Source: Clostridia bacterium (GTDB lineage Bacteria; Bacillota; Clostridia; Lutisporales; Lutisporaceae). Taken from it: DNA of 64,000 nucleotides. Location: positions 1 through 64,000 of the forward strand of contig DASPIR010000026.1 in the NCBI GenBank assembly GCA_035628995.1, written 5' to 3'. Positions 2,855 to 51,426 of this stretch are shown here, piece after piece (position 1 is the first letter of the stretch; every line of letters starts with the position of its first letter). The position numbers and the translations under genes are program-made. The notes beneath the pieces are model-generated. The model saw nothing but the letters and a program-made list of their open reading frames with translations. It searched no databases and was not told the origin of the DNA.

Positions 2855-5527
<2,673 letters not shown>

Positions 5528-24366: not shown

Positions 24367-24942
24367 TTAATTATTTCTGAAAGTTATTTCATCTTCTTCC
24401 AGAGAATCTATAATAGCTAATGATTCGATATTTATGCCAGCTTCTCTTAACAAGCTTCCACCCTTTTGGAATCCTTTTTCTATAACAATCCCGACTCCCA
24501 CTAAATTTGCATTAGCAGCATCAACAATTTCCTTTAGGCCTAAGATTGCTTGGCCATTAGCTAAAAAGTCGTCAATAATTAAGATGTTGTCATCTTTACT
24601 AATATATCTTTTTGAAACTCGTATTTTATAATGCTGAGCTTTAGTGTAAGAGTAAACACTACCTTCATAGACCTCTTTATCTAAATTTTTCGATTCAGTT
24701 TTTTTTGCGAAGACAACAGGTACATTGAAGTATTGAGCTGCAATAACTGCGATTGCAATACCGGATGCCTCTAATGTTAGTATTTTGGTAACATTTTCAT
24801 CTTGGAATCTTTTTTTAAACTCTTTTCCTATCTCATTTAACAATTCAATATCAATCTGGTGGTTTAAAAAACTATCTACCTTTAATATATTCCCTTCTAA
24901 TTTTCTACCTTCTTTTAATATCTTTTCCCTTAAAAGCTGCAT
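24367..24942 (-). CDS. xpt: Xanthine phosphoribosyltransferase
   Basis: About 191 residues. Converts xanthine and PRPP to XMP in purine salvage. It has the typical [11 protein letters not shown] start region, [27 protein letters not shown] and the PRPP loop [17 protein letters not shown], ending with [12 protein letters not shown]. Length matches the Bacillus enzyme. The start at 24942 (MQLLREKI) has GAGGG 7 nt upstream. An ATG four codons earlier is too close to its own AGGAAG. Expression is controlled by the guanine riboswitch at 25068-25135. Confidence 0.95.
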
Positions 24943-24976
24943 AATATCCCTCATTTCTTCCTAAATATTAAATAAC

Positions 24977-25006: not shown

Positions 25007-25067
25007 CATAAAATTCAAATATTATACTAGTATAAAAGTACTACTTAAGTATAAATCTAAATTAATT

Positions 25068-25135
25068 CCCCGTAGTCAGACTGTTTACGGTAGTCTGGTA
25101 GAAACTTATGGACCATATCTCCATGATTATACGAG
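25068..25135 (-). promoter_or_regulatory. Guanine (purine) riboswitch aptamer
   Basis: The minus strand carries the purine-aptamer core: P1 CTCGTA/TACGGG, TATAATC, loop 2 GATATGG, the linker AAGTTTCTACC, loop 3 CCGTAAA and closing GACTACGG. The base equivalent to position 74 is C (GAC), which specifies guanine/hypoxanthine rather than adenine. Confidence 0.95.
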
Positions 25136-25164
25136 CTTCGATTAATTTTTCAAAAGTATAGTTT

Positions 25165-48115: not shown

Positions 48116-48128
48116 ACAAAAAAAGAAG

Positions 48129-48203
48129 AGTGCCAGGTGCAAAAGTTATTAGGGTATTTGAACCAAAAGAAATTATAACTTAATAACTTTTACACCTGGC
48201 ACT
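48129..48203. repeat. REP-like long inverted repeat
   Basis: 23-bp arms (one mismatch) AGTGCCAGGTG-C-AAAAGTTATTA and its complement enclose a 29-nt AT-rich loop. Arms ending in GTGCCAGGTGC resemble the repeats mobilised by single-domain Y1 transposases. It also sits where a terminator would be expected, 14 bp after a small gene. Confidence 0.7.
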
Positions 48204-48361
48204 TATTATTATAGAAATACTAGAGATACTGTTTATCTCAGAGAACACACTCAAGATTCTAAATTTTAAAATTATTGATAACTGCATAAAACAATATATT
48301 GCAAATGTATAGCTGAAATGATATCCTAATATGCAGATGGTGTTGGAAAATACCCATCTGT

Positions 48362-48465
48362 TAAAGGGGAGTAACTACCTAGTATAGGAGATAAAGTCAA
48401 CAACCGGTAGAGTGATAACACTACCTGGCTTTATCCTTTGATTAGTCAAAGATGTAAGACCTTTA
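48362..48465 (+). promoter_or_regulatory. yybP-ykoY manganese riboswitch aptamer
   Basis: The conserved AAAGGGGAGTAACTACC and GATAAAGTCAACAACCGGTAG are present, with closing CTACCTGGCTTTATC. P1 forms between TAAAGG (48362-48367) and CCTTTA (48460-48465). The 3' strand of P1 is also the left arm of the following terminator, so Mn2+ binding should prevent termination and switch the ATPase on. Confidence 0.9.
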
Positions 48466-48511
48466 GCAATATTTTATCTTTTGGGATAGAATGCTGCTAA
48501 AGGTCTTTTTG
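48457..48511 (+). terminator. Riboswitch-controlled terminator
   Basis: AGACCTTTAGCA (48457-48468) pairs perfectly with TGCTAAAGGTCT (48495-48506), followed by TTTTT. It competes with aptamer helix P1. Confidence 0.9.
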
Positions 48512-48668
48512 TATAGGTTTTGGATTTTTAGAATGATTAAATCTATTATAAGGAGGTGGATAATATAAAGGGAATATGTTGAGCATATAAATAAGATTTA
48601 AATGAATTTATAAGATTAAAAAGTATTAAGTTAAATTATTATTCACACTGAAGGGAGAGGGACTGTAT

Positions 48669-51335
48669 ATGTGGTTTTCTATATCAAAGGAAGAAGTACT
48701 CAAAGAACTTAATGTAAACCCAGTCACGGGGCTGTCTAAAGACGAAGTGAAGGCAAGGCTTGAAAAGTATGGTGAAAATAAACTTAAGGGGAAGCCAAAG
48801 AAAAGCTTAATTTCATTATTCTTCGCACAGCTCCAGGATATGCTTATATATGTTCTATTGGGTGCAGCGGTGATTACTGTAGTAATTGGAGAATATGTAG
48901 ACGCAATTATTATACTGTTGGTTGTAGTTTTGAATGCGGTTATAGGTGTGATTCAAGAGTATAAGGCTGAAAAAGCTATTGAAGCTTTACAAAAAATGAC
49001 AACCCCTAAAGCTTTAATAAGACGAGACAGTGAAGTTAGAGAGATTAACTCTGAAGAGATAGTACCGGGGGACATTATAGTTTTAGATGCCGGAAGATAT
49101 ATACCTGCGGATATCAGACTTATAGAAAGCGCTAACTTGCAGATTGAAGAATCAGCCTTAACAGGTGAATCAGTACCATCAGAAAAGAATGCAAATGATA
49201 TTCATGAAGATCCGAAAACGCCAATAGGGGATAAATCAAATATGGCATTTATGTCTACCCTGACTACATACGGCAGAGGTGAAGGTGTAGTAGTCGGAAC
49301 GGCGATGGAGACTGAAATAGGGAAAATTGCTAAAATACTTGATGAAGATATCGAAGAAATGACCCCCCTTCAAAAGAGACTGGATGAGCTGGGCAGGATA
49401 CTGGGATTCTTAGCTATTGGCATATGTGTACTAATATTTATAATAGCTCTATTCCAGAAGAGAGATTTATTTGAAATGTTCCTTACTGCAATAAGCTTAG
49501 CTGTTGCCGCTATTCCGGAAGGACTTCCTGCAATAGTTGCAATAGTTCTTGCTCTTGGTGTAACAAGAATGTCGAAGATAAATGCCATAGTTAAAAAACT
49601 GCCTGCTGTTGAGACCTTGGGTTCTGTAAACATAATATGCTCTGATAAAACAGGCACGTTAACTCAAAATAAGATGACAGTTGTGAAATTCTATACGTTA
49701 GAAAGCCTGAAGGATGTTCCTTCAGAGGGAAAAGGATTTGATGCAGGAAAAGATGCCAGGGAATTAATGAAATCCTTCGTGCTATGCTCAGATGCTACCT
49801 ATGAAAATGGACAGAGCACAGGAGATCCTACTGAAGTTGCTTTGGTTATACTGGGTGACAGATATAATCTGGAAAGAAGAACACTGCACTCCGAATATAA
49901 AAGAGTTGGCGAAAAGCCCTTTGATTCAGATAGAAAACTTATGTCAACGTTAAATGAAGAAGAAAGTGGATATAGGATTCATACTAAGGGTGCTATAGAC
50001 AATATTCTAAAGATTTCAAAGAATGCTTTAGTTAATGGTGTTATTGTTCCATTAACTGAAGAAATGAAAGCAAGCTACCTGAAGGTGGCAGAAGAAATGT
50101 CAGATGATGCATTGAGAGTTCTGGGTGCAGCATTTAGAGATGTTGATTGCATAATTGATCCGAGCGAAATGGAAAAGGATTTAACTGTTATTGGAATAGT
50201 CGGTATGATAGATCCTCCGAGACTTGAAGTTAAGGACTCAATAATTGAAGCTAAGCGGGCTGGTATTACCCCGGTAATGATAACCGGAGATCACAAGAAT
50301 ACAGCGGTTGCCATTGCAAAGGAGCTTGGAATTGCAGCATCTATAGAACAGAGTATTACTGGTGCCGAAATAGATGAATTATCAGAGGTCGAGTTTTCAA
50401 AAAGAATAAATAATTATAGAGTATTCGCGAGAGTATCTCCTGAGCATAAGGTTAAGATAGTTAAGGCTTATAAGGCACAAGGAAATATTGTTTCTATGAC
50501 AGGAGACGGAGTCAATGATGCACCTTCATTAAAGAATGCAGATATTGGTGTTGCTATGGGTATCACAGGCACTGACGTCTCTAAGGGCGCTAGTGATATG
50601 ATACTTACTGATGATAACTTTACAACTATAGTTCGTGCTATAGAAGAAGGAAGAAACATTTACAGCAACATTAAGAAGTCAGTAATATTCCTTCTTTCAT
50701 GCAACCTTGGAGAAGTTATTGCAGTATTTGCTTCAGTACTGTTCTTCTGGCCGGTACCACTAATGCCAACACAGATTTTGTGGATAAATTTAATAACCGA
50801 TACACTTCCAGCTATTGCCCTTGGTATAGACCCCGGTGATAAGGATGTTATGAAAAAGAAGCCAAGAGATCCAAAAGAAAGCTTCTTTGCAAAAGGTGCT
50901 GGATATAGAGCTGTAATTGGTGGTACATTAATCGGGGTGCTTACTCTTGCTGCCTTCTACTTTGGATTAAGTGAATATGGATATAGCTTAGGCTCGGAGA
51001 ATATACCGGAACATGTATTAACATATGCCAGAACAATGGCATTTGTGGTTCTCGCAGGTTCACAGCTATTCTATTCACTAACAATGAGAAATTCAACCAA
51101 ATCAATATTCAAGGTAGGATTATTCTCTAACATATACCTGGTTGGTGCTATAGTAATCGGTTTTATACTACAGCTTGGAGTCATTTCAGTGCCTTTCCTT
51201 GCAAGCGCATTTAAGGTTCAAATGCTTTCGGGAAGAGACTGGATACTAGTTATACTATTTGCTTTAGTGCCTCTTGCAGTAAATGAAGTAATTAAGCTGT
51301 TTGCAAGACTAAAGGAAAGCAATAATAAGAGTTAA
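48669..51335 (+). CDS. P-type cation ATPase (Ca2+/Mn2+ exporter), P2 type
   Basis: 888 residues, a P2A-like ATPase: cytoplasmic N-terminus, actuator domain with TGES (ESALTGESVPSEK), M4 PEGLP metal-binding motif (AAIPEGLPAIVAIV), phosphorylated Asp326 in CSDKTGTLTQNKM, nucleotide-binding domain with KGA, hinge MTGDGVNDAPSLKNADIGVAMG, and about ten membrane segments. By homology it would be called a calcium pump, but the manganese riboswitch upstream argues that it exports Mn2+ when that metal is in excess, as for the yybP-ykoY-controlled P-type ATPases of lactococci. Monocistronic. Confidence 0.9.
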   Translation: MWFSISKEEVLKELNVNPVTGLSKDEVKARLEKYGENKLKGKPKKSLISLFFAQLQDMLIYVLLGAAVITVVIGEYVDAIIILLVVVLNAVIGVIQEYKAEKAIEALQKMTTPKALIRRDSEVREINSEEIVPGDIIVLDAGRYIPADIRLIESANLQIEESALTGESVPSEKNANDIHEDPKTPIGDKSNMAFMSTLTTYGRGEGVVVGTAMETEIGKIAKILDEDIEEMTPLQKRLDELGRILGFLAIGICVLIFIIALFQKRDLFEMFLTAISLAVAAIPEGLPAIVAIVLALGVTRMSKINAIVKKLPAVETLGSVNIICSDKTGTLTQNKMTVVKFYTLESLKDVPSEGKGFDAGKDARELMKSFVLCSDATYENGQSTGDPTEVALVILGDRYNLERRTLHSEYKRVGEKPFDSDRKLMSTLNEEESGYRIHTKGAIDNILKISKNALVNGVIVPLTEEMKASYLKVAEEMSDDALRVLGAAFRDVDCIIDPSEMEKDLTVIGIVGMIDPPRLEVKDSIIEAKRAGITPVMITGDHKNTAVAIAKELGIAASIEQSITGAEIDELSEVEFSKRINNYRVFARVSPEHKVKIVKAYKAQGNIVSMTGDGVNDAPSLKNADIGVAMGITGTDVSKGASDMILTDDNFTTIVRAIEEGRNIYSNIKKSVIFLLSCNLGEVIAVFASVLFFWPVPLMPTQILWINLITDTLPAIALGIDPGDKDVMKKKPRDPKESFFAKGAGYRAVIGGTLIGVLTLAAFYFGLSEYGYSLGSENIPEHVLTYARTMAFVVLAGSQLFYSLTMRNSTKSIFKVGLFSNIYLVGAIVIGFILQLGVISVPFLASAFKVQMLSGRDWILVILFALVPLAVNEVIKLFARLKESNNKS

Positions 51336-51356
51336 ATATTAATCTTTAGTATTCAG

Positions 51357-51405
51357 GGAGCCAGCTTCTTTACATTTCACAATTGTAAGGAAGCTGGCTC
51401 CTTGC
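51357..51405 (+). terminator. ATPase gene terminator
   Basis: GGAGCCAGCTTC pairs perfectly with GAAGCTGGCTCC around a 21-nt loop that itself contains TTACA/TTGTAA. Confidence 0.8.
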
Positions 51406-51426
51406 AAGTTTTTGGGACGGTTGCTT

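Follow-up and report, generated by a model that had tools for sequence, protein, structure and literature searches.

Can a leader RNA indicate which ion is moved by a transporter whose name rests on similarity? The question arises at a P-type ATPase gene of a Clostridia bacterium, which homology assigns to the calcium pumps and which lies behind a Mn2+ riboswitch in a 64,000-nt stretch of contig DASPIR010000026.1 (the window). The reading favoured here, with a probability of about 0.8, is that Mn2+ switches transcription of the gene and thereby induces export of Mn2+, and probably of Ca2+ too, by the ATPase. The locus represents a clear case in which a pump named a calcium ATPase by similarity alone has a leader RNA that informs on its substrate.

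The gene (48669..51335, + strand) encodes a type IIA P-type ATPase of 888 aa, recognised by DKTGT and TGES in its translation, by Pfam domains (PF00690, PF00122, PF00702, PF13246 and PF00689), NCBI rules and PDB alignment, and its ATG is preceded by AGGGAGAGG. Because a strong terminator follows the gene (51354..51414, +; 21 pairs, -36.8 kcal/mol, z -7.6), it probably forms a transcription unit by itself; the ORF that comes after it, from 51588, encodes a CvfB-like S1 protein (Pfam) and is separate from this unit. The expectation of the sequence-only reading that homology would label the product a calcium ATPase proved correct, since TIGR01517 (calcium-translocating, PMCA-type) passes its cut-off of 507.05 with 518 bits, while TIGR01522 and TIGR01116 reach more bits yet remain below their own cut-offs. 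This label is a name from similarity, not from function. Among PDB sequences, the best match is LMCA1 (residues 20-878), followed by human SPCA1 and SERCA. Alignment identifies E284, N679, E682, N707, T710 and D711 as cation ligands and places Q799 at the position of SERCA Glu908. In SERCA numbering, where the cation ligands of M4, M5, M6 and M8 comprise E309, N796 and D800 for site II and N768, E771, T799 and E908 for site I, the residues E309, N768, E771, N796, T799 and D800 are retained and E908 is replaced by Q799. At this last place, Glu in SERCA, the window pump carries Gln, a second pump of the same genome Glu, LMCA1 Arg and SPCA1 Asp. Judged by these residues, the metal site resembles the one in Ca2+ pumps.

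The leader upstream of the gene (48330-48512) contains the aptamer of a Mn2+ riboswitch (yybP-ykoY, RF00080) at 48356..48470 (+), assigned by an Rfam match, by two models built here (R1 and R2) and by covariation of P1 and P3 in 37 related sequences. Its parts on the + strand are P1 (48359-48367/48460-48468), L1 with GGGGAGUAAC, P2 (48378-48388), P3 (48390-48435) with the L3 core UCAACA/CCUGG, and P4 (48436-48451). An Rfam search with E-values shown places RF00080 at 48354-48451 (+) with 35.8 bits (E 5.4e-8). As the gathering score is 45, a scan of the whole window at curated cut-offs misses the aptamer and lists a purine riboswitch alone, located at 25053-25154 (-) before a 195-aa ORF (24367-24954) which, from its sequence, we take to be a xanthine phosphoribosyltransferase. 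The microRNA names that also appear among the Rfam matches in the window were rejected as chance matches to long hairpins. The RF00080 cut-off is evidently strict, since of 14 control genomes five have matches and two have matches above it, and the leader of an MntP-family gene of the same genome scores 11.9 bits.

Because the score fell below a strict cut-off, 37 candidates picked by the core motif (regular expression), the window included, were aligned (alignment A1). They derive from 39 regex candidates after exclusion of L109, which lies within a coding region, and L013, a near copy of L012; L001 and L017 were lengthened. Model R1, built on all 37 rows, gives the window 92.3 bits at 48356-48470, a score obtained with the window in its own training set. 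Model R2, built on 27 rows with the window and its near orthologues excluded, gives 62.6 bits (E 2.8e-11) as its sole match in the 64 kb. P1 and P3 were not used in candidate choice, save for bases adjoining the core; across the 37 sequences, 93.7% of their cells are paired vs 76.2% in shuffles, and 90 cells carry double-sided changes, where shuffles give 23.1 and sliding of the partner strand gives 11 to 30. The GGGAGUA (L1) and UCAACA (L3) of the window contain the invariant columns of alignments A1 and A2, where row selection used the L1 core and the L3 core entered selection loosely only; the L3 core is here taken together with the C and A next to it on the 3' side, the A being the metal-binding A of Mn2+ riboswitches. 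Both search scores and the covariation bear out the aptamer core proposed from the letters alone. The start of the leader had been set at 48362, which is slightly late, as P1 begins at 48359 and an additional hairpin, P0, at 48333.

This P0 hairpin (GCAGAUGG...CCAUCUGU; 48333..48361, +; -12.8 kcal/mol, z -4.5) lies just 5' of P1, near the presumed RNA 5' end. It was rejected as a conserved part of the leader: in a comparison of 15 leaders it was present in the window and in L058, weak in L059 and missing from most orthologues, and it is therefore probably accessory. A putative promoter was located by eye at 48299..48327 (+), with TTGCAA, a 17-nt spacer and TATCCT with a TG extended -10; it matches 8 of 12 consensus positions, where the listing cut-off was 9 of 12, and a TG-n-TATCCT/TATTCT-like element or TGTTATCCT stands at the equivalent place in L058, L070 and L074. 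The stretch that separates the riboswitch from the gene upstream also contains a long, near-perfect inverted repeat (48126-48206; AGTGCCAGGTGYAAAAGTTATTA arms, 25 pairs, -35.7 kcal/mol), which occurs as a single copy within the window and might represent a mobile element of the small, palindromic kind.

Downstream, the aptamer overlaps an intrinsic terminator (48456..48512, +), in which a stem of 13 perfect pairs, a single 1x1 mismatch and 10 further pairs (48456-48507) is followed by a U-rich tail. Folding of aptamer and terminator together yields z -6.2, and none of 200 shuffles was equally stable. As the sequence-only reading had noticed, a P1 strand is common to both structures: the 3' strand of P1 (48460-48468) lies entirely within the terminator 5' arm (48456-48468), so that P1 and terminator are mutually exclusive, which is most naturally read as an ON switch. 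An overlapping terminator with a stem score of at least 13 accompanies 47 of 53 related leaders vs 8 of 530 shuffled controls. Inspection of six leaders by eye revealed no conserved small ORF in the interval from the terminator to the ATG.

Support for manganese as the signal comes from the rest of the genome (3.65 Mb searched, 99% complete), which contains three Mn2+ riboswitches, two found as RF00080 matches and the third by R1. One precedes the window ATPase, another a second IIA ATPase with 48% identity to it, and the third an MntP-family protein; this third riboswitch (L205; C33:30003-30098 of this genome, -) escaped the RF00080 search. No IIA pumps other than these two ATPases were found in the genome. 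Other transport proteins include two of the CDF family, one of GDT1 type and one TerC, and a CaCA exchanger (PF01699) had no match in this genome. Since the same aptamer class precedes MntP, Mn2+ is the likely ligand here, and this together with the shared P1 strand agrees with the earlier prediction of switching on by Mn2+. The inference of a manganese function can be considered sound because the three riboswitches precede MntP and the only two IIA ATPases. The proposal that the ATPase is probably a Mn2+ exporter is thereby strengthened by the regulon, with the ion itself being deduced from regulation.

Whether the pump itself is specialised was approached through the occurrence of the riboswitch among related pumps. 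The comparison drew on 114 ATPase rows, of which 30 were supplied as loci, another 60 were fetched and 24 (mostly partial or weak) were left out, and on 170 loci in a sample skewed to relatives of the window pump. Removal of L043, which has no usable ORF, and of 12 copies left 157 distinct pumps; seven loci with less than 400 nt of upstream sequence were not scored for the riboswitch, and L190 lies outside the tree. Sufficient upstream sequence was available for 150 IIA ATPase loci; the leader is present at 53 of them, so that a leader-informed reading of substrate would be widespread in these relatives, and absent from 97. The 53 include L061 (R1 E 0.47) despite its lost L1 core, and a weak R1 match at L056 (E 0.77) was not counted; 21 of the riboswitch loci, L061 among them, are outside the R1 training set. 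All matches are on the strand of the pump gene, and most are separated from the open frame by no more than about 330 nt; L158 and L170 lie at about 640 nt. A scan for core motifs in the 600 nt upstream of the 97 leaderless pumps gave a relaxed match at L136 only, which was judged to be chance. L061 itself (2790-2903, Desulforamulus aeronauticus) is a decayed Mn2+ riboswitch in which the L1 core is gone and the terminator retained.

The leader is retained in orthologues with 90% and 88% identity and absent from the near orthologues L060 (85%) and L033 (84%), and Mn2+ control is therefore not an essential companion of the pump. Together with the 25 changes of riboswitch state needed on a FastTree phylogeny, at least 16 of them on well-supported branches, these orthologues indicate that leader and pump are separable. 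Nor do the residues of the metal site mark Mn2+ specificity, a candidate criterion ruled out across the 157 pumps: riboswitches precede pumps with Glu (18), Gln (30) and Arg (5) at the Glu908 place alike, LMCA1-type pumps among them, and of the pumps with the ligand signature of the window pump, 22 have a riboswitch, whereas 67 lack one or are of undetermined state. As the same residues occur with and without riboswitch, they give no sign of a differing substrate in riboswitch-bearing pumps, and regulation is no proof of a substrate change. Aptamer variants (L3 CAACA vs CGUCA) were likewise rejected as a marker of pump type, each being found with every type.

These results bear directly on the alternatives. 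A dedicated exporter, which pumps Mn2+ and not Ca2+ owing to Gln799 at the Glu908 position and to other changes, would fit a gene under Mn2+ riboswitch control and a position unlike both SERCA and the second pump of the genome, which have Glu there; it is nevertheless rather unlikely, given that the Gln signature is shared with many pumps of the sample lacking a detected riboswitch and that the riboswitch accompanies Glu, Gln and Arg types without distinction. MgtA of Streptococcus pneumoniae is, moreover, described as exporting both ions (PMC9936198). For the same reasons, the suggestion that this context corrects the calcium-pump annotation goes too far where it means manganese instead of calcium: the ligands are of SERCA type save Q799, riboswitch-free orthologues share them and the genome search returned no CaCA exchanger.

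The opposite possibility, a calcium pump with a riboswitch that responds chiefly to Ca2+, or to Ca2+ and Mn2+ mixed, and for which induction by Mn2+ is secondary, appears improbable. In its favour, the mgtA aptamer reportedly binds Ca2+ more tightly than Mn2+, which leaves Mn2+ as the sole ligand uncertain, and the two IIA ATPases are the only recognised candidates for Ca2+ export among the families searched. Against it, an aptamer of this class also precedes MntP in the genome, and MntP belongs to a family of Mn2+ exporters; the L1/L3 core is invariant and is that of Mn2+ riboswitches; and mgtA is reportedly activated more strongly by Mn2+. That the leader is a functionless chance resemblance or a decayed riboswitch is hardly credible: its score does fall below the Rfam cut-off, but the E-values of RF00080 and R2 and the covariation rule out chance, the overlapping terminator is conserved, and L061, by contrast, shows how a truly decayed copy has lost its L1 core.

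Mn2+-induced export of Mn2+, probably with Ca2+, remains the preferred explanation and would operate as follows. While Mn2+ is scarce, the 3' strand of P1 would pair within the terminator and the RNA would end at about 48512. Upon a rise of cytosolic Mn2+, the ion is expected to dock L1 and L3 and hold P1 closed, which would block the terminator and allow RNA polymerase to proceed into the ATPase gene. The ATPase would then spend ATP to expel the surplus of Mn2+, probably along with Ca2+, and act beside MntP and the second IIA ATPase, each behind its own Mn2+ riboswitch. Since both IIA ATPases, the only recognised Ca2+ pumps of a genome in which no CaCA exchanger was found, lie behind Mn2+ riboswitches, it may tentatively be proposed that this lineage couples Ca2+ export to Mn2+: both could be joint Ca2+/Mn2+ pumps, or their aptamers could read both ions, and Mn2+ stress would also lower cytosolic Ca2+. 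In another Clostridia genome (L229), a Mn2+ riboswitch precedes a protein that, from its sequence, we take to be a Na+/Ca2+ exchanger (CaCA), which looks like another coupling of Mn2+ sensing to a calcium-type transporter.

Two further loci carry paired Mn2+ aptamers. In the related genome G029, R1 matches two aptamers before a IIA ATPase (L177 1565-1666 and 1709-1805; G029:C60:4829-4930 and 4973-5069), neither of which was in its training set; of the two, Rfam detects the first only (E 1e-4). By eye, a TTGACA/TATAAT promoter precedes the first aptamer only and each aptamer has a separate terminator, a hairpin at the first and, at the second, one also recovered by terminator analysis. In G127:C199 (L240 3557-3674 and 3967-4084, -), two near-identical aptamers 292 nt apart precede a GDT1/UPF0016-type gene, and both are found by Rfam below its cut-off; this pair is perhaps a recent duplication, and a separate promoter may serve each aptamer. 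A series of two switches that both depend on Mn2+ would steepen the response. In its accessible part, a 2022 review of tandem riboswitches calls the tandem Mn2+ type surprisingly lacking (PMC9481103), a gap that a tandem Mn2+ riboswitch would fill if confirmed, and a search of the open literature found no later report of one.

The arrangement of the window locus is already known, as YoaB, MgtA and CD2503 have been published. For Lactococcus lactis yoaB, the accessible text describes a riboswitch in which Mn2+ stabilises P1.1 and the terminator is prevented (PMC11087558), the gene being ON with Mn2+ and its P-type ATPase implicated in Mn2+ efflux. As in the window, a yybP-ykoY element precedes a P-type ATPase and the 3' strand of P1 enters the terminator, a likeness of leader and gene arrangement that is drawn from published descriptions and not from pump sequence. 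One review, in the part available, terms these riboswitches OFF switches (PMC11477304); ON rather than OFF is favoured by the L. lactis work and by the anatomy of the window leader, from which we infer the direction. A review also expects other ligands for some yybP variants. S. pneumoniae mgtA (formerly caxP), by the accessible account, has a Mn2+-activated yybP-ykoY riboswitch before a PII-type pump, as in the window, in another class of bacteria. Listeria LMCA1 (lmo0841), a Ca2+-ATPase of solved structure, shares with the window pump the fold family and the M4/M6 ligands, and differs at the places of SERCA Glu771 and Glu908, which are Ala and Arg in LMCA1 but Glu and Gln in the window pump. 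A parallel from the same class is Clostridioides difficile, also of the Clostridia, for which the available text gives one predicted Mn2+ riboswitch, before the cation P-type ATPase CD2503; the arrangement is the same, whereas the genome of the window has three such riboswitches, two of them before ATPases.
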